This document shows, one piece after another, positions 20,588 through 63,747 of a DNA stretch of 64,000 nucleotides. This stretch comes from Branchiostoma lanceolatum (lineage: Eukaryota; Chordata; Leptocardii; Amphioxiformes; Branchiostomatidae). Location of the stretch: NCBI RefSeq assembly GCF_035083965.1, contig NC_089722.1:26992642-27056641 (forward strand), written 5' to 3'. Each line of letters opens with the position of its first letter. The first letter of the stretch is position 1. The notes under the pieces were generated by a model. It saw nothing but the letters and a program-made list of their open reading frames with translations. It ran no database searches and was not told where the DNA came from. Position numbers and translations under genes: made by a program.

Positions 20588-23500
20588 TCATATGATGGAC
20601 TCTGCGGAACGTGACAGGTGCAGAGGTGTGGACGGGCTGCGGGTCAGGCGTTTCCGTGGCAACCTGTCCAGGGTCTGCGTGAGGTGACTGAACTGGGGCC
20701 TCTTGTCGGGCTGGGTCTTCCAACACTGCATCAGGATATCCTGGGGTGGGGATAGAATTACAGTTGAAACCAGAAAGGTAACATTTACAAGGAAATCATA
20801 TACTTATTAATAAACAATGTTGTTTGGAGGTAAATTACAATATCTATAAGGTAGGCTATAATTATCTGTAAGTGTATGTGTGCTGCACATGTACACATTG
20901 TCTCGGTTTTTATTTGGCTTTTGTTGTGACCCATGTATGTCCTTATTCTGTTAGTATTTTAATTTGTACCGGTAACTTATTTTGGAAAACCCAATAAAGA
21001 GAAATACATAATGTTTACCTTTACATGATCTAGCCTAACAAACAACTGCTCTGTTCATTCTTACTCAAACGCAGTCATATATATGGTGACCAGCCTCTCC
21101 AGCTCTGTCCTGCCACTTGCTACATTATGTATCAGACTAATCAAACACCACAGGGTGTCTGCTACCTTACCGCTAACCATGGTGACAGCTGTCATTGACA
21201 TAATTTGTTTGGAATCGAAGAAACAGAGCAAAAACAATATCCCCAGAAGATAAACAAAATAACGAAATCAGAGATGGCAGGCTTCATCCCCTTGCCCATA
21301 CTGCTTTGCGACCCTTCCATGTTTCGCATACAAAATAGCAGCATAATGAGGATGTATGGTAAGGCTGCATTGTGAACATGAGAATTACAGAAACAAATAG
21401 ACAGTCCGTCAGACACACTGGAAGACAGACACACATACCTTGGCATCCCTACTCTGCACATTGCTGGGGGACTGTCGTAGACCCTTCCCCACCTGCCAGA
21501 TAATGGACTCTGCCGGCTGAGTCTTGAAGGGCAGGTCTCCCACTAGTAGTTCGTACCACACCGTTCTGGAGGAGGGGGGAAAAACATCTCACATTAACAT
21601 GGAAGTCTTCTTTATTCTATATTTGTTCTACATAATAATATCTTTTTGTGCAGATTTTGTCTTGTTGCATAAGAAAGGGAATACTGTATGTTTTGAATGA
21701 ATTTCAGTTGTGGAATGTTATTCACATCTTAGTTATTGTTTTATTTGCAAACAACTGGAATCAAACCTGCACCACCTCTGCATATTATAAGGACCACTTA
21801 CCAATTGTGGTCACTTTTTGGTGGCCCTCTCGATTATTTTTCCCTTTGACCAAAGCATTATAAATGCTGTCAACAATGGCTATCTGTCATATTGTTGACA
21901 ATGATTTTTTTCTTCAAATCCCTTGAGTGGCCACAGCAGACAAGCTCAAACATAACGACCATACAAAATTGTCAAAACTTTTATTGAATTTCTTATTCTC
22001 CTCACGTCTTTCTATACGCACATTGGCTTTTCTACATCATAATCCCTACCATATGAATCTTTTAAGTGTAAATTTTTTTATTCCACTGACCCGAAGGCAT
22101 AGACGTCTGAAGCCTGTGAGAACGGGAGGTCGCTGTCTGTGTACTGGCTAGTCGCTCGGAGGGACGTGATCACTTCTGGCGCCAAGTACGGGAGCCATCC
22201 TGGCGGTATGGCCAGCGTGTCATCTTTCCTGTAGGGACGGAAAAACAAACGTAACCGATTTAAAAATTATGGCAGAACAAATGGTCTATTTTGTTGAAAC
22301 GTTCAAAACATGCTACACTTTAAAATATCAAAGTTAGTTGAGCTAAAATCTTTCCCACACCATTCAGTGTATAGAGTGGTGGCTGTCTCTGTTTCTATAG
22401 CCCTTGGGCCACACAGCACTACAGCAGAGGGCTAGTTCACTGACCAGTACAGGTAGTACTACAGTACTCTTTCTCATAAGTGCACGAGTGCTATGCAAAG
22501 AAAGCTGGATACTTAAATTGGACTTTTCAATAATTATTTCAACAGGAAGCCAGAAGATTACAAAAACCAATTGTTAAGAGCAAACGTTATGCGTATAGCC
22601 TAAAAATACATAAAGTTTCATAGGTGACTTTAAAGAAAAAGGAGTATACCTTTCTCCATATTGGATCAGCTTGGTAACACTGAAGAGGCCAAAGTCAGTG
22701 ATGACGACCTTGCCATTCTCCAAGAAGATGTTCTTGGACTTCAGGTCCTTGTGTAAGATCTCCCTAGCATGGAGGTAGCCCATGCCCTGAGGAAATGTCA
22801 ATCACCCATTCAAAAGCACATCATTACAAAATTCCTGCCTCAGCAGTGTTGATGGCATGCAGCTTAAGTAGCCAATGGGGGATTGTTAAGTAGAATGCTG
22901 TTTTCTCTGATTGGCTGCATCAGCAAACTAGGTTTAGGAGTAGCCAATCAGGACCAGCTGATTTTTAACCAATCAAAAATAAAAATATAGAAAAAAAAAG
23001 ACAACTGCAGCTCACCTGAGCAATTTGCGTTGCTATGTTGACTATCCTACTCATATTCAGGGTCTCTCTTCTGTCCCGTACTGTGTCGTACAACGTCTTT
23101 CCTTTACATAAACTGTGGACAAACAAAAAAATTAGAACTGCAGAGCAACTGTACAATTTATAGCTCTAAAACCTCAATGAATGGCATCATAAATCTTCTC
23201 CCCTTCATCTATTTTACTCCTAAATTGAATCATTCATTGTATGATGAGTGTATTACAATTATAACTGCAGATAATGTACATGTAAAAATGTATATGTAGC
23301 AACTGTTAGAATTTACTGTGTACTTATAGATTGTGGCGCCAAAACATTACAATAAAATTGCTAAGTCAAATGGTACTTTGATCAAATAACAATGAAACAA
23401 CTTTTCAAATTACTATCCTGTTCCTTTAACAACTATCCCAGCACCAATATTGGCTACTACTAGTATATGTTTCCATGGCATATACAGGGAGGTTTTCCAC

Positions 23501-45226: not shown

Positions 45227-48200
45227 TTAAGTACAATTCTGAATACTGTACAATAAGTTACTTTTGCCAGTTCTAATTGATGGTATATCTGTAGTTGCTA
45301 TCCTGGATGTTCCCTGCAGTACGGTAGACTTGAATGTCTGTGCGATGAAGCGGTTAGTTTCAGTCAACGAGGGATGACTCAAGTATTCCTCAAACTGGAA
45401 AAACACCAAATGATATCGGTCAAGTCAACTATGATTGGTCTCATTTTTTTAAGCTAATTTATCTTATAGCTTGTTATGCATCCCGTCTCAACCCTGGTTT
45501 GCGTCTCTGATTGCTACCTAGCTAAAAAGTCTGGCACTCGGTAATAGAGGATACATTGGCATTTGAACATTTCCCTAAGATATAAGCAAAATCTCTGATT
45601 GGCTCTGAATCACAAGGTATTCAAATGTCTGATCCCGTTACACTGCTTCAGGGAAATATTCAATACCCAAACTTAGTAAAGGGCCAGACGTTTAAATGGA
45701 GAAGGGTGCCAGACTATTTGGCAGGGAAGCGATCATAGGATCAGGAGCAAACTGGAGCTGGAATAGGAAGGTTTTCAGGCTAAATACAGTGATGTATCTT
45801 ACTCTTTTTCAAAAAGGTTCCTGACCGCTTCCTTTGAACAGAATAATCCTAACAATAGATTAACCCTTTCACTACTGAGGTAGCCATTTGGCGCCAAGTT
45901 TTAATACTGTTCACAGGAGTAGACAGCGGGGACAAGGTTAAAATGAGAAACTGCTGCATGTTGGTTTCTTTCTACTGATGCTGTAAACAAGGTCATGTGA
46001 GTCCTTCCAATATGAAACAACTCTCTTAGCAGCAATAGAGGTGTCCCAGGAGCTAGCGGCACCGTCCTGGAAACACGAAACGAAGAAGCGGTGCTGTTCG
46101 CTGACATCAGGGTGGTTGAAGAACTCACTAATCTGGAAATGGATGTATTTGGGGGAGGTACAACAGAGACATTGCATCATGAGCTATGACCTTATTGTTT
46201 TGATGAAGGTATCTGGAGGAGACCAGGGTTTTGCCCAGCCCTTTCCTTCTCACTTTCTTTTGTGATTGAACCCAACTTGGAGCTATTCATTTCAGACATA
46301 CCAATTTTGTTTCTGTCAAAACAATGGAATGGCCACTATTTTGGCCATCATTAACTACTAGAAATGACCGACACTGGACAAAACCCTAGCTAGCCAACAT
46401 AGTTTGCACTGCAGTCATTCCTCAGTAAGACAGCCAGAACCACAGTTCCCATTCATTCAGCTTGTTACACAGACGACAAGTTTCTCCACTGTGCCTCCTT
46501 CAGTGGTTTTGGCTCTAAAACTGCCATGGAAAGATATATAAGTGCAAACGTTGTGTGCTGTGCTCATGTGAGCCTTAACCGCTAAAGGAGCTACTTCGGT
46601 GAAACTTGCCTTGGGACAGACTGAAAAAAAAAGAACTATACATTGGCTGCGGGGCAAAAGACGTCAGTTGGCTAGAGGATAAGTTTGTTTCATATATCTT
46701 CTAATGGTTTTGATGAAATGTATGGTACTGCTCAAAAACAAGTTACCAGTACTGCCCTTCACTGATCTTCACCTTTAGCATAACCATTTTCGTTCTTCCA
46801 AAATAGATCAGCCTTAAGGCACTTTGGCAAATCAAAGAACTTTGGTGAGGGATCGTGCAAAATACAACAACATCAGTGTGACACCTAAATTGATACTTAC
46901 TGGCATCCACTGACATTTTGACACTTCCCGTTCACACACAGTGATGTCTAGATTCTTGGGCTTCATGTGGCAGACAAAGTACATGTCAGAGCAGCCAAAG
47001 GAGAAATTGTGCTGGTGTCGGAAACAGAGTAGAGACAGGAACTCTGCGTGAACTCCCGTCTCCTCCAGGACCTCTCTTTTGGCTGTATCTGCAAGGTCCT
47101 CTCCTGTGGAAAAAATGGTAGTCAAACTAAATGTCAAATTTCATACATATATTTCCACAGGGTACCCTAATGCCACATTAAAAACAGTGTTATCAAGAAC
47201 TTCTCGAGAATATCTTAATTGTAAACACCTGAATATCTGAAGTGTAAGTGTGCATATATACCTTGGTGATTACTGGTGGAATAATGAGAGCTGATGATAA
47301 CTTGTTGAATCTGGATATCTATTGAAGATAGCTATAAACTCTGCACTTAGATGCATTTCTCTCCATTATTGAGTTGAGTGTATTGAGAAAATCCATTAGT
47401 GATGTGCCCTAAGGTACACTGCTAGTCTTCCTGGACTTCTAACTTGACATAACAATGAATACATTTAGACATCATAGTACATGTACATACAATGCCATAT
47501 CACATGCTGATGTTTGCAGTCTCTGAGTCTGAGTGCTTTTTCTTAGCCTGGAATCCAGGCCTATTATAGCTCCCGAGTCTCTCTCCGCAAATAGACGGAG
47601 AGTTGCGGAGAGAGACTCGGGAGCTATAATACATGTAGGTCTGGATTCCAGGCTAGCTTTTTCTAGCTCTGATTGCTATCAATCACCTGGTTCAGCAAGG
47701 CCACCTGGCAGTTTCCAGTGGGGCTGCACAGAGTGGGTGTACTTCTCCTGGATCACCAGAACTTCATTCTGATCGTTCACCACAAATCCTGCAACACCTG
47801 TATATAAACGTGAACAGTTTCATCAGGTCAGTAGGTCATTTGAGATATCAAAGAATTCTTTCACAGCAACCTGGTAGTGTTTCAGTAGTCTTTCTGCTGC
47901 CTTTCTAAGGGCAATAATGACTGCATCTACTTCTTGTTGCTCAGTGGAGAGAGTATTGAAGTCCTAAACAATGTCGTCCCGAGGAGTTACAGGCTCCAGT
48001 CAGTATTGCCCTGAGGACGGTACCAGAATGGCTACCAAAACGTTTGCAGGTGAGAAAAATTTTGTAATGGTCTAGAATAAGTTTTTAAACTTTGCACAAG
48101 TAGATGGCTTAATATTTAAATTACATGTCATGTAGAAGCAAAATATATAAAGATTAGAATATTTGCTATTAGTGGCGGTTATATAGAGTTACACGTACAT

Positions 48201-49807
48201 GTAGTACAAAATATGTGTGAAAACTTTAAGATGTGTGCAAAATAACATCATAGCTATTTCCATGGAGTGATACCAGTGAAGTCTAATCTCCAAGCAGATG
48301 TTGGACGGCAAAATTGCAATGTTTTTTCTAGGTCCTTTTTCATAATGGCCTTCCTAAGGGAAGTTTACCTACCGACATAGTGCGCTGCATATCCTGGGAT
48401 CATGTTAGGTTCGTCTTTAGGAAGCCATCTGATCATCATGATGTAATCTCTGTGGGCATGGTGGAACTCAAACCCATTCTGTAAAGGGAAAGATGAACAC
48501 TTTTTTAGGTGAGATGAAAGTATATATATATTTAGGTTGTCTTCATAGCAATGAACTTCAACATTGAAAAAATAATAAGAGAATAAAAGGCTGACCTGAG
48601 CAGCAACAGGGACTATTTCAGCATCCTTCAGACTAATCTTTATCCAGACGCCCCGGACTCCACTCTCCTGCCATTTTATCAGGTCAGCTGAGGATGGAAA
48701 TTCAGTTTATGATATATGATTACATCATCATGTCATGCTAGTTTCACAGATATCTCTTCAAAGTTCAAACTCCTTTTCCTCTTTGATTCTTATCCTCCAT
48801 AGCTCTAGTTAGGTCTTTAAAAGTGCAGCATGCATCCTCACATACATATGATTACAGTTCTCGTCTCTTCATGGTATTAGTAAGCATAGCTGTGTTTCTG
48901 ATAGCCAAGATGATCACAAGTTTTAGTCTGTTCTCAGACATGTGTGTACTTAGTATTAAGTACAAAATAGTTTATATACATGTATTTGTTCTGCACTCAA
49001 GCAAATACTTACACCTGTATACTTACATAAGTGCTGTGGGGTAGAATCCACATACAATCCACATACAAAGAATAGACACAAAATACTGCCAATGTTGGTA
49101 CATATAGAAGCAAAGACACATTTAGGTGAGTAAGCTAAAAATCATTGCACCTATTTAGTGGTTGATAGAACATGTATTGTTACTGCACCTTCTAATTTGT
49201 TCTTGAATTCCTCAGTGCTGCATTGTTGCTTCATGGTTTCAACAATGACCCCTCCATATCTGTGAAAAACATTGCAGTTGAGCTAGATTAAGAGAAATTC
49301 ATCTGCCTACCCAAGATGATCATAGGTAAAATTTATCAATACTAAGGACAGGGTACACTACAGGGAAGCTCTTCTAGCACTAAGGACAGGGGACAGGGAA
49401 GGTCTTTTAGTACTAAGGACAGGGGACAGGGAAGGTCTTTTAGTACTAAGGACAGGGGACAGGGAAGGTCTTTTAGCACTAAGGACAGGGTGCAGGGAAG
49501 GTCCTTTAGTACTAAGGGCCTACCCATGATGATCATTGGTAAGATTTATGAATGTAAGTAATATATTGTCTAATAAAAAGTGATAATCAGATCAACCTGT
49601 AACCATAGTTAGATTTGGGGATATAAGTTTACGCAACGACATCTATGATAAGTGCTCATGAGTACTTTTGAAAATTTTTACCCAATCATGCTTTTCTAGA
49701 ATTATATCTCATAATGTTAGTAGATCATGACATTTCTTTTTAAGTACAGAATGATGTAGCAATACTCACCTATCCTTCCTACAGAGGAGTTGACTATCTT
49801 CTGCCAT
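45227..49807 (-). CDS. NUDT6: NUDT6-type Nudix hydrolase
   Basis: A Nudix hydrolase of the NUDT6 (FGF2-antisense gene product) family; the physiological substrate is not settled. Exons: 49770-49807, 49189-49259, 48596-48687, 48373-48478, 47687-47797, 46901-47103, then 45227-45394 (exon 7B), total 262 residues. Starting at MAEDSQLL, the text DRYGGV, then GFEFHHAH, IPGYAAHYVGVAG and FRHQHNFSFGCSDMYFVCH follows human NUDT6. The Nudix box is complete at residues 135-157 (G135, E141, REVLEETG 149-156). Exon 7B retains the family C-terminus (TTDIPSIRTGKSNLLY against VEELPAVYTGLFYKLY of human, from memory). An alternative last exon (7A) lies at 45938-46132. A possible acceptor just upstream of the start codon suggests a non-coding first exon. 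The gene is divergent from CDK2AP1. Confidence 0.93.
45860..45942 (-). mobile_element. Short MITE, TTTAACCTTCTCCCTGCTG family, copy 3
   Basis: On the minus strand it starts TTTTAACCTTGTCCCCGCTG, passes CCAAATGGCTACCTCAGTA and ends AAAGGGTTAAT. It matches copies at 27787 and 30134 over their whole length. Its first bases contain the TAA stop of NUDT6 exon 7A. Confidence 0.75.
45938..46132 (-). CDS. NUDT6: Alternative terminal exon 7A of NUDT6
   Basis: A second 3' terminal exon, homologous to exon 7B. The acceptor TCCATTTCCAG puts ISEFFNHPDVSEQHRFF in phase 0, exactly as exon 7B puts FEEYLSHPSLTETNRFI, so exon 6 can splice to either. The match runs to the end (HDLVYSI versus SNLLYSI at the same spacing). 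The exon continues to a stop 13 residues later, giving a 271-residue isoform. The stop codon falls in the end of a MITE. I see no convincing donor inside exon 7A, so it is a terminal rather than an internal exon. Confidence 0.7.
   Translation of the reverse strand: MSEFFNHPDVSEQHRFFVSCFQDGAASSWDTSIAAKRVVSYWKDSHDLVYSISRKKPTCSSFSF
47544..47655. mobile_element. Foldback MITE with TAGCCTGGAATCCAG ends
   Basis: A 112-bp hairpin in NUDT6 intron 5. The outer arms are TAGCCTGGAATCCAG and its inverse; the inner arms are ATTATAGCTCCCGAGTCTCT and its inverse. Pairing is near perfect apart from a short asymmetric insert. Confidence 0.85.
48294..48335. mobile_element. CTCCAAGCAGA family fragment, copy 5
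   Basis: TAATCTCCAAGCAGATGTTGG followed by AAAATTGCAATG matches the left half of the family; no right terminus is found nearby, so it is a truncated copy. Confidence 0.6.
49303..49556. repeat. 33-bp minisatellite inside a duplicated flank, NUDT6 intron 1
   Basis: About five tandem units of CTAAGGACAGGGGACAGGGA plus AGGTCTTTTAGTA. The array is bracketed by two copies of CTACCCAAGATGATCATAGG / CTACCCATGATGATCATTGG, suggesting it arose within a larger duplication. Confidence 0.85.
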
Positions 49808-51442: not shown

Positions 51443-54400
51443 ATGGATAACCTGAGTCCGACTCAGGTCCCAGGTGAGTCTCTGTGATGCAGTGCATGGT
51501 TTGGATTTTAGTGTGAGGAACTAAATTTGAACTAACTGCGTAGAATTTGAGTTGGTTTTCTGACTAAAAAAACGTCCTTCGCTATACCTTCTTTGTCGCC
51601 TCGGATTTTCTATATTTCCGAGTTTTTTCCCCTCAAAATTTCCTCAAATAGAGCATCGCCGACCGCTTTGTTCTCTCCTTCTAAAGTTTGTGAAACAACT
51701 TCTTGATTTACTAGTATTTATCCCGAATCTACTGCACTGTTTTGCATAGAGTCTGACTGGCAGGCTTTGTTCTTTTTGTTAGCATGTTTGGTATGAATAT
51801 GTACTAATTTATGCATGAGTGGTTTTGTGTACAGAGGGGTAGCATTTTTCCAGATTTTTAATTCAAATGAATAAATAGAGAGATTATAGTCTGGACTGTC
51901 ATCTTCAAATTTCTTGTTACTCAACTCTAGGTAAATAGATTTATGTTAAATAGCAAAAACAATACATTGTATTAATTAAACTGTGATGTGAAATATGCAA
52001 ATAAGGTAATATATCCTTCTGATTAGATGTTATAGTATGTGATAATTTCTGCAATATCACACAATTAGCTTGAATGCAGCATTATTGTTGCTAGCGGGTT
52101 TGGGGGATCATGAAAAAATATTTGAAAAAGTTTGCACAGGAGTATGGTATACCATATATTTTCTATTACTAGTATATGCTATGGGGACTCACATAGTCAA
52201 ACGGTTCTTTCGTATAGCAAAATGAACAAAACACTCGAAAGTTACTCAAGTTTGGTAAATTGTCAATTTCTGCTGTCTGTCATCACTGATCAGTGACATT
52301 CACTACCTATAAACCAATAAACTACCTAGTATCTTTTATTACCTATATCATGGTGTAATACGTACATCAAAATGCAAACTATACATTGTGAAGGCATTTT
52401 CTTCTGGAATACAGTAGATTTTGTTGTACAGTATGTTGGAACACCAAACTATACCCGGTAATGATATTGAATGAAAGAACATACGCTGCAAAGAAGTCCC
52501 TTGTTAACATTGTAATTATATTTGCATGCAGGGTCCCTTTTTCCCATGTCAATTTGTTGTCAAGTTGCTAAATCCCTAAAGAATGCACTTGCAGGGAAAT
52601 GCTCTGGCACACTTGTAACATTGATCACCTACATTGTTAAAGTATGCAGCATGCCAGGCTATCCCCATATATGGGGCAAAGATGAATGTTTGGTGTCAAT
52701 AACAGTCCTGTAATACATTCCCTTTCCACAGAGGGGAGACCGTTGAGAGTCCAAATGTTGACATATCTCTCCGTCTCAACAATCTTTCACATTGATTCCA
52801 ATGATTGCTTTGATGATTTTGATCTGTTGGTGAATTGCTTCATGAAATCAATGGTTGTCCTCAATTTTAAAGTGGTTCAAAATAGGCTTTCACTTCAGCC
52901 AGCAGTCTGTGAATGTAACGGTCTTTCAATGAGTCACTCAGCAATCTCTCATTCTCAACGGGCACTCAACGGTCTCACCAGTCTTTGAAACATCCCTCGA
53001 TCTCATCATTCTTTCAAACGTCCCTCAATGAACGCAACGTTTTTGGTGAATTTTCAGCCCCAATGTGGCGACCACACCACAAAGGGATTGGTGAGAGACT
53101 GTGCTCCGCATGAGAGATTGCAGAAGGACCAATGAAAGATCAGCGCAAGAATCTGATGAAACAGACTGCTCGTGCCGCCTGAAGCATAACAGTGGGCAAT
53201 ACAAAAACGGCTGCGAACCCTCTATTTTAAGACCTGTGGATGATTAGGCTGAAGAAGAAGAATGTATTCCATGCCTCCAAAGAAGTGGAACCAAAGAAAG
53301 GCAGCTGCTCCTGCTCCATATTACGCTGCTCTAGAATCCAGTGACTCGGAGGTCTCAGACGCCAGTGGCCAACCCAAGAAGAAGAGGAAGGACAAGACCG
53401 TCGCCACGCTCTCCGAACCAGAAGAGGAGATCATGTTGGAGTGGCTAAGAAAGCACCCAGAGTTTTACAACCGGCGGATGATGGAGTATAAGAACGTCCA
53501 AAGGAAGGAGACTCTGTGGCGAGAGAAGGCATCAGACATGGGGAAAAGTGTGGAGCATCTGAAGACATGGTATAGGAGCATGAGAACGAGGATGGCCAGG
53601 CTACTGAGGAAGTCCAGCAAACCCAATGAAGAACTAACAGAGAGGGACACGTGGGTCATAGAGAACTTTATCTTTCTCAGAAAGCACATTGAAGCTGTGC
53701 ACAGGCGGCCAATGAAGAGTGTGAGTATTGTCATCTTGCTGATACATGTTTCCTTTCCAGTTATACCCTATCATTGTCATTTTGATGTTTTTATTTACTT
53801 ATTGACTTAAGTTGAATACTGTAAGTATTGTGGTAAAGTTAGCAATTGGGGAGAAAGGGAGTACTAGTAGTTCATGGAATTTAATTTTGATGGTAGGAAC
53901 AAACATCACTGCCTCAAATACTTGAGACAGTGAATTTATTGGTTGACTAGTGACTGCTTAAGTAGCTAGAATTAAGTTACAGTTAACAAATAAAGAATTA
54001 CTTTAGTCTGTGTAACAGAAGCTATCTCTGACCAGAACCTGTCATGATGGACCTGACCAGTGGGAGTACAGCTAGACGTGCAATTTAGTCAGACTCAGAG
54101 ACTAACGACCTGTTCACTTATGAAATTATATCATTTCAGGTTACTCAGAGACCTGCCCCAACAGCTAGCCATGGTCCACTTCACCCTGTAATCACCGTTA
54201 AGTCTGAAGCTACTTCTGGCACTGCTGAGACACCGGTTAGCACTACGTCCATGTCTCCAGTCCCTAGAATTCCAGAACTAAAAAGGCCTGGCGAGCAGGA
54301 TAATGGTGTTGCCAGCACCCTAGGGGACCTCACCAACCACATCATGACAATGCAGCATCATCTCATCAACCGTCTTCAACCTCCGGGTGACCAGGAGAGG

Positions 54401-57400
54401 CTGGCGTTCTGCGAGTGGGTACGCGCCACCCTAGTCGGCTTGGACCACGGCGTGTGGAGGCGGAGCCAGAAGGAGATCACGGACATCCTCTTCCGTTCGA
54501 TAGCAGAGAACGACGCAGCAGGGGAATGGCCGTCACAGGTTCCAAACCCGACTGCTGTCTGGGGGTCTGCGAATCAAGAGAGGCCACAGCAGCAGACTGA
54601 TCATGTGGGCTTTCAGTGTTCCGTTCCTCAGTCTCAAGTTCAAGTTCCGCCGAGACCTAGCTCCGCCCCTCCGGCCACGTCTACTGGCGGCAGTCCCGAC
54701 TTTTCACAGGACGTCAGCGGGTTCATTAGCAACCTTCTTCGAAACTTTGATACCAGATACAACTTACAAGATACAAGTTGACTTTATTGGTTTGTCGCAG
54801 TCTTAAAGTTAAGTTAGAAGTGAATTTTTTTTAAATCAAATATGTACAAATAAAAATGATTTGTTTTTAAGCTGCAACTTTCAAGATGCAAGTGGACTTT
54901 ATTAGGTTGTCAGCCTTGTAAGTTGAATTAGAATTGAATTAAAAAATCAATGTACAAATGTTTTTAAGACACAACTTACAAGATACAAGTGGACTTTATT
55001 GATTTGTCACAGTCTTAGGCTTCAATTGACTTAGAATTGAATTTTTAAAAATCAACGTACAAATTACAATGAATAGGTTTTTTTAAGCTTGATGCATGTG
55101 CAAGATTTAACAGCTTGTAGGTATACATATGGCATTCATTAATTTTTCTAAAAATGTCTAGGATTATCCAGTATAAGACATCCCAGTTTCATTTGTAGAA
55201 TGGGGCAAAGGCACTGTATGTACCTACTGTTTTAAATGAGTCAGATAGGGTATCAGGGAGCTGCTGTATCTTTATGTTTTGGCCCTCAGGATGTCAAGCT
55301 TGTGTCTTTGGTGCTTCTAGTTGTGAAGCTCAACTTGCATCGAGGAAGCCACTGTTCCACTTCAAAGTCGAGTGTTCCTATGCCTTTTAGCAAGCTAGGA
55401 GTTATGAGACCCAGATGTGCAAATGCATCTGTATGTCAATGACATGACTTGACTTGTAGTTGTACAATGTACAGTATTAATGACAACATTATGAGTGCAC
55501 CCACACTGCAATGACTTCATAAGCTTGTCAGCTCAGTATTACTACTACAGTACTGTAGTACATTATTCTAATATTCAATATAAAACTTAGTAATGTATAA
55601 AAAGCCAACAAGTTTCAAATAAACGATAAACATGTTGATTGTCAACATGAGCTGACTTTCATGCTATATTTATGTTTCGCCAACGAAACATATTGTTTTT
55701 GTCAGGTTTCTTCTTCTCCTGTCAAATCTTCAAATCGCTTCTTCTCGGTCGTCCGTCGACCAAATAAGCTGAAATTTGGTATGCAGGTAGAGTATGTGTA
55801 TACCCCTAGACCCTTTTTAAATTTTTTTGATATAAGTTTTTAAAATGATTTTATGGAGGTTTTTTGGTCATTTTCAGACAAAAGTCGCACATTATGGCCT
55901 CCAGTGCCGTGGTGTTGAAACCTGAGGACCTGAAATTTGGTTTAGTTGTGCATTGGATATTTACCCAAAGGACCCCATTATTTTTTTTGGCATTCACTAC
56001 TTCAAAATGATTTATTTTGCAATTTTTTGATGCAATTTTTGGTTATTTTCTGTCGGGGCCAGCAAGAACTAGGTCATACTGTAACATAAGCCCTCCTACA
56101 CTCACCCCTTTCTGGGACGTAAAACCAAGCAGATGTCAGGGTACCTATACTAATGGTATTACAGAAAGTTATATGTACCTTATGTTACATGGTACGGATG
56201 TTATATTTGACATGTACGTACCGTTAGCAAAGGTGATCACACCTGGCCATGAATTATGCTAATGACGACCTCATTTGCATAATTCCTGCATAAACTTCTA
56301 TTTCCCTTACCGTGACAACATGTAGGTACATGTAGGAAAGGTGAAAGCACCTGGACATAACTTATGCTCATGAGGACCTCATTTGCATAAATTATGCAGA
56401 AACTTGGATTTGCCCAGGAGTTCTTTTGGGACAGCCCACTTCTTGCATGAGGAGTATGGGCGAAACATCCTGAATTTGCTCTTAAAGCAAATGACGGCCA
56501 GTCTAGTCTTAATACACTTCTTTGATATTCTCTGCTGAGACTGAAGTTCTTGGATGGCAACCATTTCCAGACGAGAATATTCTTGGTACCAGTAGCACTA
56601 GTAGATTATTTGACTAATTAAATCTCTGCACAGGCTGTGAAATGTACAATGTATGAATGAAACACAGTACATTTTGTATTCAGTAAGCCTGATTCTTCTA
56701 GGTAACTAATGCTAATGGTAATGCAGACATTATCAAGATCAAGGGACCTCAGATATTCCATCCCCACCAGTGCATTCCTCAGGGATTTAACTAGAAAACA
56801 GACCAGCATAGCAGGGGATCGCCAAGCCCTCTCACTGATTTAATTGGGACCAATTCATTGTTCCGAGGGGGGAGGCGTAAATATCTAAATCAATCAGATG
56901 GTTGGTTTTGATGCTGATACATCATAGATGTATTCCAGAAGATGAAAGCCACATGGTGTGTATTAAATTGCACGTTATTTCTGTCATATTTCGCTATCCC
57001 AATGGACATCAACTGAAAGGACTGTACTTGTTGTTCCACATCCTAGTTAGCCCGCAGAAAAGTTTAATTGCAGGAGTGAATGTGGCCGGCTCAAGTCACC
57101 ACGGCTAACCATACGCTTATGAAAAGACAAGATAATTCTATGCATCTCTTTTTATTTTCCTCCAAGGTGCACATGTTTTTCCTCGGCATGCCGTTCCTGT
57201 ACACGTCCAAACACAACTTGACAAGCTTGAACTTGTTAAAAGCACCTGGCTATATAATTGTCCTTTTTAGTTGAAGAGGACATTAAACTCCATTAGCTTG
57301 AATCCTCTTCTCACATAATGTTGAGTTGTGTGCAGTAAAAAAAGACAGGCTAAGGAACAAAACAAAGCCATTTTTCTCATTGTGAGAAGAAGGTAGAGAA

Positions 57401-58437
57401 TTCGAACCTGTTGTTTTTAATTCCAGGAACGTCCACCACCTACTTCCCCGCTCAACACCAGTTAATCATGGCATCACCCGCTGGACACATTAACCCTTCG
57501 TCCCTGCCCGCCTTGGGGGGACTCATACCCGGCGCCCATCTGCTGGGACGTGGGGGTCCCGTGCCTCAGAGCAAGTACGCTGAGCTCCTCGCTGTTATAG
57601 AAGACCTGGGGAAGGACATACGACCCACCTACGCTGGGAGCAAAAGTTCCACAGAGAGACTTAAGCGAGGTGGGTTCAATCAAAGTTCCCCTTTTTAAAT
57701 GGTGTCATCTACTGATAGAAATAGTACTACTGTGTTGTTGTAAATGTAACATACGTATGAAATCTTTTTCAAAAGTTAACTGGAGAAAGTAACTTGTATG
57801 CTGTATCTTTGTACATAACTTTTCCTTACAGTCTACATTGCAGTTACCTTGTTTGTAGCTACCTGTCAATGAATCATCCTGGCTCTTGTATTTTCTTTGT
57901 CTAACCCTGCTTACTCTGCATGAAAAGGAAGCACCAAACACCACATGTTTTCTACTACAGGCATGCTACAAGCATTTGTGGGCCAAGATTGGTGCACTTT
58001 TCATGGATCCCATTGCATGCTGGAATGTGCAGGTCATTATGGGCAGTGCAGGTTGCAATCAAAATCATTACCAGATAGACCAGACGCAGTATGCATACAT
58101 GGCATACTTGATATAGTAATGATGTTGTTTCCCCCTCCAGCAACCCATAACGCTCTGCTTCTCCCAGCATGCAATAGATCTGGGCTTAGCTCTATGCAGG
58201 GTTAGACTGAAGGGATGCCATAGCTCTTTTTTTTCTTTCTGTACCCATGACAAGCTCTCCATTCTTTTCTGGGCCTGAGTTGTTTTCAGAGCTAACGTGT
58301 GTGGTGTGTGCCATGTGCCTGTTGAGCGGGCGAGGGTGGCAACTCCTGTTGTGTTTTCTGTCTGCACAGGTATTATCCATGCCCGGGCCCTGGTCCGAGA
58401 GTGTCTCATGGAAACTGAGCGCAGTGCAAGATCCTAA
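51443..58437 (+). CDS. CDK2AP1: CDK2-associated protein 1 (DOC-1)
   Basis: Small nuclear protein known to bind CDK2 and to be a subunit of the NuRD chromatin complex. Exons 51443-51473, 57427-57669 and 58370-58437 join in phase to 113 residues (human has 115). The start [10 protein letters not shown] sits in a good AAAATGG context, and the one-base phase-1 end fits only the 57427 acceptor. The body matches the family closely: [35 protein letters not shown], then [12 protein letters not shown] and ETERSARS. The TER motif (107-109), reported as needed for CDK2 binding in human, is present with this last exon. A second last exon at 58548-58615 gives an alternative C-terminus. Intron 1 is about 6 kb and contains a separate MADF gene. 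Confidence 0.95.
51474..53261. other. CDK2AP1 intron 1, part before the nested gene
   Basis: No exon supported in most of this stretch. From about 52730 to 53100 it has a repetitive, CT- and CA-rich texture (CAATCTCTCATTCTCAAC; GAGAGATTGCAGAAGG) that may be a decayed repeat and may include the promoter or 5' UTR of the nested MADF gene. Confidence 0.45.
53262..54781 (+). CDS. MADF-domain protein nested in CDK2AP1 intron 1
   Basis: Predicted nuclear DNA-binding protein of 366 residues. Exon 1 is 53262-53720 and exon 2 is 54140-54781, joined in phase 0. An in-frame TGA twelve bases upstream shows that translation starts at MYSMPPKK in this exon, independent of CDK2AP1. Residues 15-50 are acidic/basic ([20 protein letters not shown], a likely nuclear signal). 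The MADF fold spans about 55-140: [45 protein letters not shown] and [13 protein letters not shown]. The C-terminal half has a BESS-like helical segment ([20 protein letters not shown]) and a Pro/Gln/Ser-rich tail. GC content of the coding part is well above the intron. A domesticated transposon-associated MADF/Myb-like protein is possible; the specific gene is not recognised. Confidence 0.85.
54760..55088 (+). repeat. Three-copy tandem repeat covering the MADF gene stop codon
   Basis: Units begin at about 54760, 54875 and 54972 (CAACTTACAAGATACAAGTT / CAACTTTCAAGATGCAAGTG / CAACTTACAAGATACAAGTG), each followed by GACTTTATT, a TTTGTC or GTTGTC string and a TTAGAA(G/T)TGAATT block. The first unit encodes the last residues (YNLQDTS) and stop of the MADF protein. 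Confidence 0.85.
54849..54854 (+). terminator. Candidate poly(A) signal of the MADF gene
   Basis: AATAAA about 70 nt after the MADF stop codon, inside the first tandem repeat unit. If used, the gene would have a very short 3' UTR and terminate well inside the CDK2AP1 intron. Confidence 0.45.
55089..57426. other. CDK2AP1 intron 1, part after the nested gene
   Basis: No exon supported. At 55670-55700 a small palindrome (ATGTTTCGCCAACGAAACAT) opens an interspersed-repeat-like stretch that runs to about 56060 and contains paired GACCTGAAATTTGG / AGCTGAAATTTGG phrases. A tandem duplication follows at 56229-56410. Confidence 0.5.
56229..56410. repeat. ~107-bp tandem duplication containing CTCATTTGCATAA
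   Basis: AAAGGTGATCACACCTGG ... GACCTCATTTGCATAA at 56229 returns at 56337 as AAAGGTGAAAGCACCTGG ... GACCTCATTTGCATAA. Each copy holds the octamer ATTTGCAT. Likely part of an interspersed repeat. Confidence 0.75.
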
Positions 58438-58547
58438 GAGATACAACAGTGCCAAAGAAGATATCAGAGAAAGCCAAAAAATACACACAAAACCGCCAAA
58501 GAAAATTTTCTCCTATTTATTTTTCTTTCCCCGTCTTCCTCCCGCAG

Positions 58548-58615
58548 CGATTATTCACGCAAGGGCGTTGGTACGAGAGTGTCGCATGGAAATGGAGCGC
58601 AGTCAACGATCATGA
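58548..58615 (+). CDS. CDK2AP1: Alternative terminal exon of CDK2AP1
   Basis: A homologous copy of the last exon, 110 bp beyond the stop codon of the first. The acceptor TTCCTCCCGCAG restores the same phase; the exon has the same 68-nt length. It encodes [12 protein letters not shown] then RMEMERSQRS and stop, 18 of 22 residues identical to the first copy. Of the codon changes I count nine synonymous and four replacing, so both copies appear under protein-level constraint. The TER motif reads MER here. Confidence 0.8.
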
Positions 58616-59751
58616 CGGAGTTAACAGAACTGAACTGGACTCGCTAGTGCTTTACTAGCATTAGTATCTGCCATGCAAACAGTCACTATTTACCAACTGT
58701 ATACTTTTGATACATGTTTTGAACTGTAATTAGTGATATTGAATGGAAAGATCAGGGACTAAGATGTTCCAAGTGCCAGCTTAGGGAAGTACCAATGTCA
58801 CTTTTACGTATATTGGTGCAAGTTCTGTTTGTTAGGTTATTACATACAATATCTAACTTCAAGAATCATGTGTTTAATTTAACTGCACGGTAGTTCAACA
58901 ATAAGTTTATGTCTTCCTAGGTTGTCGTAAAGCAAAAAGCTGTGAAAGACCTTCTTCGCCTTGTTCCTTGTCTGACTAGTGAATTGCTTGAGTCTGACCC
59001 AGACTCTTATTATATACATTGTATGAAGGAAATATTTGTATGTTAGCAACTTTTGCAATTCTGCTGAATTTGGGAAAGTAGGTCCTTAAAGAATTTGGAT
59101 AGCTTTTTTTGAAATGACACAAGTTTTTATTTGAGAATACTTGTTACCCACATCTAGTAAAATTCAAGGACAGTAAACCATTAGTCATTGTGCCAATTAG
59201 ACATTAGACATAAGTGTGTTGTTATAACACTATTCAGCCATTACTAAATGTTAGTATCCAACTCACATGGACCAAGAAAATCAGTTTTGCTTGCTGTCTT
59301 TTTTTCCCAATCTGCCCAAATCACCGTTAGTGCTGGTAAAGTACTGTGTAGCTTTACTACTGTGTGCACATTTGTGTAGTATTACATAACGACAATGTTG
59401 TTGATGTAAAAGAATAGTCCTAAATGTTAGCTCCTGAAAGACAAGAAGCATGAACACCATGCTGGCACATTTTTTAAACATCAGTAAACCATATTTACAT
59501 GTACAAATATTGTGTCTGCTGTTGTTTGCTTGTGTCTTTTGTTTGGGGGAATACATGATGCTTTTCTAAAATCTCACTACGTCCTTTGGAGTAAGCATTT
59601 CACAATCTCTCATACTAGTACATGCTCAGGGAAGTATTAGACACCTACATGTACATACTGTCCTTAATCCAGTGAATTCTATCATGAGCTAAGATGTCAG
59701 GAGTGCAAGTTAGATTGTTCCTCCAGTGTTGTCTTCCCAGATAATCCTGTA

Positions 59752-60280
59752 TAAGTCCACACCAATTTAATTTGTTGCTTCTAGGATTTTTTCAGAAAAC
59801 AATTGGAGCGACAGGGCGAAAAAAAAAAAAGATTGGCAAATAGTCTGGGGTGAAAATAAGGGTTTACATAACATAAAGTATAAGAGGATTATTCAAGTTT
59901 CAGCTTTGTATGGCTAATTTTATGCAATGAACCCCTTTATGCAATGCACCCCTTTTTGCAATGCACCCCTTTCTGGTACTACAATTTCAGTAACAAAATT
60001 ACCCTTTGCCATGTTATATATGGATTGATATTGAGAAATATGGTTTTAATAAATGAAAAATTATAACTTGTGACCACACTTTTTTAAGTATGTGCAGGCC
60101 ATTATAATTCATTTCGGTGGCTATCGAGTTTTACAACTGAACAGATAGTAAAATTGGCAGATAGTACAATTGGGAGTTAAAATTTGTGAATGGGAATAGA
60201 TACCCAATGTTTTTTTTTCAAAATAGGAAAAACAGGACAGGCTATTCTGAGAAGCAACAAAATAAATTGGCGTGGCCTAA
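59752..60280. mobile_element. Longer element of the GGCCACACCAATTT family
   Basis: Left end AAGTCCACACCAATTTAATT then TGTTGCTTCT; right end AGAAGCAACAAAATAAATTG then GCGTGGCC, an inverted match. At about 529 bp it is twice the length of the other copies and contains the ATGCAATGCACCCC repeat. Confidence 0.75.
59927..59970 (+). repeat. Triple tandem repeat TGCAATGMACCCCTTT
   Basis: Three tandem units of about 16-20 bp (ATGCAATGAACCCCTTT, ATGCAATGCACCCCTTT, TTGCAATGCACCCCTTT). Confidence 0.85.
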
Positions 60281-61781: not shown

Positions 61782-63288
61782 TCACACATCATCATCAGAT
61801 TCCTGCAGGAGCTGTTTAAAGGCCTTTTTCTTCTCTAGGTTCTTGTTGGCCTTTTTTCGCTTCTCTCTTTTCTTGATGGCGAGTTCTTTCTTCTCCCTGA
61901 CCAGCACGCTCTCCTCCCCCTTGACGTGTAGATCTAGTTTCTCTCTCATGTGCTGTCTGGCTATTTTCCTGTTTTCATCCAAGGACCTGGTTTGATGGCA
62001 CTGTGACAGGTGAGAAAAGTTGAGGAAATATATTATTTCTTAACATTTTAAAGTGCTTGTGACTTAGAAGACTACATTTTCTGCTTATATTTAGCAAGAA
62101 TGATAGTATCATTCGATCACCATCAAAATCATTCTTCTGACTCATGATTTATTTTGCACGGTCGATTGCCTATACGTGACGTAAAGGAAAATTGCAAACT
62201 GGGCACTGCGACATGAGAAAAACAAATACAGTACAGCGTAGTTTTGAAAAGCCGTAAAAGTAAATATTAAGTTATGACAGATGCACTGTTTGCTTCTCTG
62301 AAGTATATTGTACGGCATTAAAACACTCATACTATGACAATTCTTTCTAAATATAGAATTTTTTCTTTATTCTTCATTAGAAATTGCAACAACCAGGGCT
62401 CGAAATTCATCTTTGGGAATAGGTGCACTGGTGCACCCAACTAAAAAAATTGGGTGCACAGAAAGAATTTTGGGTGCACCAGATAAAATAAAGTTGAATG
62501 TTCTTCAGAACATAATTACAAAGTTTAACGCTGCTGCCTTTCTTAAGAACTTCAATCTGTAATTCTAGAGCTAACTTTAAAATTTCAAACAAATAATACA
62601 TTGAATAAAGTACAGCAAAAAGTTATCATGCTGCTTTTATACTTACATTTCAAGAATATTCTGTATACTAGTGTACAATAGTACCTTAACCCTGTAGGCT
62701 ACAAAAATATATAGGTGCACCAGTGCACCCACAGTCAAAAATTAGGTGCACAGCTCCAATTTTGGGTGCACTGGGTGCACATGCACCCACTATTTCGAGC
62801 CCTGGCAACAACACACACAATGGAATGCCAGACAGACAAGCTGATGTAAAAAGAAAATGAAATGATTGGTTAATGAGCCGTGTTTATCCGACGGAGACAC
62901 GCAAAGTCTTTATTTGTGTTTAGCAGCCCAAAGCCAAACAAATAAACATTCAACAAAAGTTTACCTTCACTACAATGCCAGTCGGGACGTGCTTGAGCAG
63001 AACACAGTTGTTAGTCTTGTTGGTTGCCTGGCCTCCTGGACCCCAGCCACGCTGAAAGCTCTCTTCCAACTCTGACTCAACTACGTCAACTAAACTCTTC
63101 TTAGTGTCTTTCCTACTGCTTGTCCAGCGAACGGAATATCGTTGTAAACATCTTGGCATATGTGGATGTTGTTGTTGTCCCACCATCGGCACCTGGCAAG
63201 CTGCTATCGACGACAGTTGTCTTTGTAAACCAGTATAAAACAGAGGTGTTAGGTGCAGGTTTTTGGCCAGTAAGATTATAGAGGCCAT
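61782..63288 (-). CDS. MTRFR: Mitochondrial translation release factor in rescue (C12orf65)
   Basis: A mitochondrial GGQ-type peptide-release protein that rescues stalled mitoribosomes. Two exons, 62965-63288 and 61782-62000, join in phase 0 to 180 residues (human 166). The first ~50 residues are basic and hydrophobic without acids ([15 protein letters not shown]...), as expected of a mitochondrial import signal. The catalytic motif is [15 protein letters not shown] (GGQ 85-87), followed by [12 protein letters not shown], then [15 protein letters not shown] in exon 2, exactly as in the family. The C-terminus is a long Lys/Glu-rich helix ([20 protein letters not shown]), which in this family contacts the ribosome. 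It lacks the codon-recognition domains of full release factors. The gene is convergent with CDK2AP1, as in human. Confidence 0.96.
62394..62804. mobile_element. hAT-like MITE with exact 8-bp target-site duplication, copy 2
   Basis: Inverted ends CAGGGCTCGAAAT and ATTTCGAGCCCTG. The 8-bp direct repeat GCAACAAC flanks the element at 62386-62393 and 62805-62812, the duplication length typical of hAT transposases. Both subterminal regions carry clustered GGTGCAC(C) motifs, possible transposase-binding sites. It sits in the MTRFR intron and has no coding capacity. Confidence 0.92.
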
Positions 63289-63747
63289 GATTAAGAGTCG
63301 TCCATCGATGAAAAGTGACTAAGTTGTCCAAATACAATGAAAACTGCACACGAATTGGTCAAAAATCGATGGATGACCCTTTTCTAGCCCTTTTCAGCCA
63401 TGTTGCAGGTCAGAGTTGAATGGGTAAGACCAATACTCAAGAAGGTTCCTTGTGCACAAGGTAAGTTACGATTCCTAATCATCAGCTATTTTTTAAAAAA
63501 GTGTATGAATTACCATACTTTAAAAAGTAATTATAAATGTTGCTTAGAAAATTATAAAAGCTAATATTGAATATTTCTTGTGGTTTTGGATTTATTCGTT
63601 CTTAAGGTCCCCCGTTTCTATTATAAACTAGTCTGACCAATTTTAAGAAGTTTGATTGGCTACGAGGTTTAGCAAACAACCAATCACGTGGCCGGATTAA
63701 GTTTCAAGACATGTAATCGTCCCGCCCCGGGCTCTTTTGCAAATATA
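63289..63747. promoter_or_regulatory. Probable bidirectional promoter between MTRFR and a rightward gene
   Basis: A 459-bp gap between the MTRFR start codon (minus) and a probable first exon (plus). It holds an E-box CACGTG with an adjacent CCAATCAC at about 63679-63690 and a GC box (CCCGCCCCGGG) near 63722. Divergent short-gap pairs are common for mitochondrial genes, but promoter activity is inferred. Confidence 0.45.

Follow-up and report, generated by a model that had tools for sequence, protein, structure and literature searches.

The locus described here raises the question of whether one gene could yield two proteins with slightly different tails. We analyzed a 64,000-nucleotide stretch of the Branchiostoma lanceolatum genome (the window), whose plus strand carries a CDK2AP gene with its last coding segment present in two tandem copies. 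CDK2AP1 is a small NuRD-associated protein. In the portions of the sources used here, disrupting it in mice is described as causing a high rate of embryonic lethality (PMC2641017), and the protein is described as belonging, in mouse stem cells, to just one of two NuRD assemblies (PMC4813707). Two naturally occurring tails would offer an experiment, already set up, on how the C-terminal helix of this protein selects partners.

Its profile and structure matches relate the gene to the CDK2AP1 and CDK2AP2 of vertebrates. Against the CDK2AP profile PF09806, the protein ending in copy 1 (isoform 1) scored 77.5 bits and that ending in copy 2 (isoform 2) 72.2 bits, both above the gathering score of 26.2 bits, and among solved structures the copy 1 protein matched human CDK2AP1 (2kw6, E 1.3e-26) and CDK2AP2 (2m1l, E 7.6e-25). 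Both copies have Ala at residue 100, the residue found in CDK2AP2, so the name CDK2AP1/2-type is better than CDK2AP1. As expected for an animal gene, searches of viral contigs (31 pattern matches) and prokaryote contigs (173) gave 0 confirmed relatives. For the first coding exon, a comparison of the human N-terminus with the plus strand gave no convincing match (best scores 41 and 39).

The coding exon upstream of the duplication (57427..57669, plus strand; ...PQSKYAELL...SSTERLKR|G) is open in frame to both stops, and its 5' end is placed by an acceptor AG at 57425-57426 that lies at the 95.7th percentile of an approximate acceptor matrix. It ends in a phase 1 donor after position 57669 (GAG|GTGGGT), which matches seven of the nine donor consensus bases. 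On the same strand follow an intron of 700 nt (57670..58369), closing with acceptor 1 (...TGTTGTGTTTTCTGTCTGCACAG); copy 1 of the last coding segment (58370..58437), which encodes 22 residues, ends in TAA and is ancestral-like; a 110-nt spacer (58438..58547), which would serve as 3' UTR for copy 1 and as intron end, with acceptor 2, for copy 2; and copy 2 (58548..58615), also of 22 residues, ending in TGA and derived at four sites. A probable shared 3' UTR (58616..60053, plus strand) was placed by a hexamer scan only. The donor after 57669 would join either copy in phase 1, giving Gly (G|GT) with copy 1 and Ala (G|CG) with copy 2, and both spliced frames run uninterrupted to their respective stops. 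Upstream, the copy 2 frame also stays open for 134 codons (58211-58612, plus strand), crossing the spacer and, in a shifted frame, copy 1; this is probably due to chance.

The window contains other genes and coding segments. Next to CDK2AP lies an MTRFR (C12orf65)-like release-factor gene on the minus strand (61785..63318), identified by an RF-1 domain and a PDB match: the segment 62953-63318 carries the RF-1 domain and has the C12orf65 homolog 2rsm as its best PDB match (E 1.6e-16), while the segment 61785-62039, which has no Pfam match, was assigned to the gene by reading alone. CDK2AP1 and MTRFR are adjacent also in human, and the adjacency is possibly a conserved chordate gene order. Farther away on the minus strand, we observed a KSR N-terminal helical hairpin (PF20406, 42150-42470) and, some 20 kb from it, a kinase-domain segment (22577-22801); the two perhaps belong to one KSR gene with long introns. 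Two Nudix hydrolase exons (46835-47140, PF00293, and 48368-48706, PF18290) lie on the minus strand as well. On the plus strand upstream of the CDK2AP exons, there is an ORF with a MADF-type DNA-binding domain (53253-53807, PF10545), a second long ORF with no Pfam match (54089-54778) and an ORF with an in-frame short tandem repeat (49346-49558, ...GRSFSTKDRGQ...).

The original prediction had described two 68-nt segments in the same phase, 110 nt apart and with their own stops, sharing 18 of 22 residues and differing by nine synonymous and four replacement codons. Recomputation confirmed every part of this description; at the nucleotide level 51 of the 68 positions are identical, and the stops TAA and TGA are counted apart from the codon differences. 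When the copy 1 peptide was aligned with BLOSUM62 to the six-frame translation of the window, copy 1 scored 108, copy 2 85 and the next best stop-free segment only 32, so the similarity of the copies is not a matter of chance; the same search gave no third copy. The similarity spans the coding segment and a few bases more (83 nt at 73%), and the 100-110-nt flanks of the copies were no more alike than shuffled sequences at the 5% level (the upstream score was reached by 22 and the downstream score by 128 of 200 shuffles). As the 75% identity hardly extends beyond the coding segment and the flanks are unrelated, we rejected a haplotype or assembly duplicate, and also read-through from the stop of copy 1 into copy 2, since the 110-nt spacer shifts copy 2 to another frame.

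In human numbering, the four differing sites are Gly94, Leu106, Thr109 and Ala113, and the replacements in copy 2 are Gly94Ala, Leu106Arg, Thr109Met and Ala113Gln. The copy 1 tail is nearly identical to that of vertebrate CDK2AP1 and CDK2AP2. As human CDK2AP1 (2kw6) and CDK2AP2 (2m1l) both agree with copy 1 at all four sites, the replacements are most simply placed on copy 2.

The excess of silent changes had been taken to argue that both copies encode selected proteins. The pairwise NG86 estimates (dN 0.12, dS 1.62, ratio 0.07) show this excess, but a strongly constrained copy 1 would inflate such a contrast, and constraint on copy 1 alone would also yield an excess, so the pairwise figure is insufficient by itself. 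Copy 2 was therefore tested separately. In simulations, four or fewer replacements at 16 differences were found in none of 4,000 runs when both copies drifted, and in 0.9% of 4,000 runs when copy 1 accepted silent changes only and copy 2 drifted. We then placed all four replacements on copy 2 and varied its omega over a grid, with 48,000 runs each and three transversion settings. The pattern of nine silent and four replacement codons without a stop was obtained most often with a copy 2 omega of 0.2, 0.2 and 0.1, respectively (944, 940 and 1,016 of 48,000 runs); omega 0.5 yielded it in 201, 157 and 128 runs, and omega 1 in 6, 8 and 7. In these simulations, an omega of 0.1-0.2 on the copy 2 branch fits about 120-160 times better than neutrality; an earlier simulation in a different setting (12,000 runs each) peaked at 0.05-0.1.

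Among neutral runs with exactly nine silent codons, 4.8-6.4% (3.5% in the earlier setting) had no more than four replacements in copy 2 and lacked a stop, which makes the substitution counts alone moderate evidence. A neutral copy 2 is to that degree compatible with the data, as would be expected if one copy were used and the other were a decaying or fixed leftover of the duplication, and use is not something that can be read from a single sequence. Against such a leftover, the silent divergence is near saturation (dS 1.6) and the flanks have diverged beyond alignment, yet the frames, stops and acceptors are intact. The replacements in copy 2 are also milder than random ones, which is evidence independent of the substitution counts: the 58-residue peptide with copy 2 scored 72.9 bits against PF09806, and all 20 random variants with four replacements scored lower (59.4 to 71.8 bits). 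Its acceptor, finally, is the best of the 3,792 scored. We consider it rather unlikely that one of the copies is a mere leftover. From the omega of copy 2, its mild replacements and its acceptor, both copies look like selected coding sequence, on evidence of moderate strength from a single sequence. The claim of selection on both copies thus stood, and the argument from the pairwise excess did not suffice to carry it.

The original prediction envisaged two last exons. We scored the 3,792 AGs of the plus strand with the acceptor matrix, whose base frequencies are approximate; in that ranking acceptor 2 came first and acceptor 1 fell at the 98.6th percentile. In plain counts, acceptor 2 has 36 pyrimidines in the 40 nt before the AG; of 3,791 plus-strand AGs it alone attains this value, and none of 3,940 minus-strand AGs does. 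In the 20-nt count it has 18, which 7 of 3,791 attain. Acceptor 1 is unremarkable by the same measure, with 14 of 20 (attained by 305) and 22 of 40 (attained by 1,210 of 3,791 plus-strand AGs). A branch-point-like site precedes acceptor 2, its A (58519) lying 28 nt from the AG; before acceptor 1, the yUnAy branch-point pattern had no match within 70 nt.

The spacer itself (58438..58547) contains no AATAAA or ATTAAA and only the weak variants AATACA (58480) and AAGAAA (58499), and its two GTs, at 58449 and 58533, match four and three of the nine donor consensus bases, in comparison with seven for the real donor. Because there is neither a canonical poly(A) signal nor a good donor between the copies, the sequence is more simply read as one terminal exon that has two alternative 3' splice sites, and this fits better than the two last exons first proposed. 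Downstream of copy 2, the first AATAAA is found at 60048, with the weaker AGTAAA at 59156, 59172 and 59483. In regulated splicing, it is common for a single donor to be contested by a weaker acceptor upstream and a stronger one downstream.

True alternative last exons, with copy 1 ending at a poly(A) site of its own in the spacer and the choice coupling splicing to polyadenylation, would make use of the weak hexamers: these are followed by a U-rich stretch, and AATACA could end the copy 1 mRNA early. A precedent for such a design is human CAPZB, which in the part of PMC3228551 drawn on here has homologous 3'-terminal exons with multiple poly(A) sites. The U-rich stretch, however, is already accounted for as the pyrimidine tract of acceptor 2, and with the canonical hexamers missing from the 110 nt and the first one lying at 60048, we regard separate last exons as quite improbable. 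The strength of acceptor 2, far above that of acceptor 1, would also suit a role for copy 2 mainly in RNA, in which acceptor 2 competes with acceptor 1 to tune the output of the gene and the tail is secondary. Such a role leaves the protein-level constraint within copy 2 unexplained and seems to us extremely improbable.

Several further features surround the proposed single terminal exon with two acceptors. Acceptor 1 is directly followed by a GT (58367-58378, plus strand; CAG|GTATTA) that matches six of nine donor bases and is the best GT in 58370-58700; once position 58370 has been joined, this GT could be used, by recursive splicing, as a second, weak donor for acceptor 2. The 700-nt intron contains four GCATG, the Rbfox-type core motif, at 57918, 57961, 58015 and 58167 on the plus strand, with 0.70 expected from the window density (shuffle P 0.041). 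GCATG was one of nine splicing-factor motifs tested and the enrichment fails correction, so it is a lead only for tissue-specific choice. An inverted repeat in the same intron (58012-58043 with 58144-58175, arms of 32 nt, 78% complementary) was not counted as a hairpin, since its folding z was -1.36 and 17 of 200 shuffles did equally well. In the probable 3' UTR, three 17-nt repeats lie head to tail at 59919-59969, about 80 nt before the first AATAAA.

What the second tail would change in the protein depends on four residues. In the part of PMC11875312 considered here, the CDK2AP fold is described as a homodimeric four-helix bundle; Cys105 is said to alternate between contacts with Tyr63 within and between the chains, and Thr109, Glu110 and Arg111 to sit in a pocket proposed as the CDK2 site (PMC11875312, citing p12DOC-1, MCB 2000). 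As a readout of what the family tolerates, we computed the PF09806 score of the 58-residue copy 1 peptide (78.4 bits) with substitutions. These scores reflect family sequences and priors rather than binding, and they are blunt: a proline placed in that C-terminal helix (Leu101Pro) lowers the score by no more than 3.4 bits.

At position 106 the profile favored hydrophobic residues, with Ile at 78.7, Leu at 78.4 and Met at 77.5 bits, followed by Thr 75.6, Ala 75.4, Gln 74.7, Lys 74.3, Arg 74.2, Glu 73.9 and Asp 73.5. The other changes of copy 2, made singly, gave 76.7 bits for Gly94Ala and 79.1 bits for Ala113Gln, and for comparison Cys105Ala gave 72.4, Leu101Pro 75.0, Val102Asp 73.2 and Glu104Gln 77.1 bits. 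On the evidence of the profile, position 106 is a hydrophobic site, and Leu106Arg, beside Cys105, is an unusual change and the costliest of the four. Residues 102, 106, 109 and 113 fall within 60 degrees on the helix. Their clustering suggests one altered helix face, and for three changed positions it could be chance.

The TER motif had been proposed as a possible functional difference, with copy 2 turning CDK2 binding off by replacing Thr-Glu-Arg with Met-Glu-Arg. The alignment bears out the difference in the motif itself, copy 1 having Thr-Glu-Arg and copy 2 Met-Glu-Arg, and the motif coincides with the proposed CDK2-binding residues just mentioned; changing all three of Thr109, Glu110 and Arg111 to Ala also lowers the score to 73.1 bits. 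At position 109, however, Met (78.1 bits) scored about as well as Thr (78.4), and Leu (78.8) and Ile (78.7) slightly higher, with Ala at 76.9, Ser at 76.5, Lys at 76.4 and Asp at 75.6; in the profile, Thr109 is a loosely aliphatic site without family conservation at which Met is ordinary. Glu110 and Arg111 are identical in both copies, and changing these two together costs more (74.2 bits). Single changes within the motif are mild (Glu110Gln 78.0, Glu110Asp 77.0, Arg111Lys 77.1 and Arg111Ala 75.5 bits). We therefore did not retain the switch of CDK2 binding, which we judge very improbable. With tails of equal length and four differing sites, the pair points to position 106 instead of the TER threonine.

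The account that we think rather probable is an old tandem duplication after which one donor joins either acceptor of a single terminal exon, both tails being kept by selection. With acceptor 1 (58370) chosen, the protein would have the canonical tail and copy 2 would be left in the 3' UTR of the mRNA; with acceptor 2 (58548) chosen, copy 1 would be removed with the intron and the protein would have the variant tail of equal length. As each stop would lie in the last exon, neither mRNA is expected to undergo exon-junction-dependent decay. Rather than deleting a motif, the variant tail would most likely retune the C-terminal helix of the homodimeric four-helix bundle. The chief change would be the Arg next to Cys105, at position 106, a hydrophobic site; Thr109Met and Ala113Gln would lie on that side of the helix too, and the altered helix may change dimer pairing or the docking of partners such as NuRD and CDK2. 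A bolder version, in our view unlikely, is that in amphioxus one gene makes two dimer subunits of a NuRD-associated regulator for which human has two proteins: Arg106 would disfavor self-pairing or alter the Cys105-Tyr63 switch, and acceptor choice would determine, tissue by tissue, the homo- or heterodimer that joins NuRD or gets to CDK2.

The gene shares the common domain and the C-terminal helix with vertebrate CDK2AP1 (2kw6) and CDK2AP2 (2m1l). To our knowledge, no duplicated last coding segment has been described in vertebrate CDK2AP1 or CDK2AP2. In the literature collection searched, no paper uses the two names CDK2AP1 and amphioxus together, none combines CDK2AP1 with "TER motif", and CDK2AP occurs 0 times in each of the main texts of two papers on homologous alternative exons (PMC9741552 and PMC4465641).

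The arrangement has parallels in other genes. In the part of PMC9741552 considered here, 77 of 236 human events of tandem-duplicated exon substitution swap the C-terminus. As in those events, the CDK2AP segments are adjacent and homologous, and the proteins would be identical except for a homologous tail; the segments are of equal length and in the same phase with their own stops and splice sites, as judged from the letters, and protein-level constraint is seen in both, with moderate strength in one sequence. Unlike the events as described there, the two CDK2AP segments seem to lie in a single terminal exon with a common 3' end. CAPZB, in the portions of PMC3228551 and PMC4465641 used here, likewise has homologous alternative C-terminal exons, but it is described with multiple poly(A) sites (PMC3228551), whereas there is no canonical one between the CDK2AP copies. 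The locus would clearly exemplify the nesting of a duplicated coding segment in a single terminal exon: duplicated homologous final exons are an established kind, and the nested single-exon layout is what is distinctive here.
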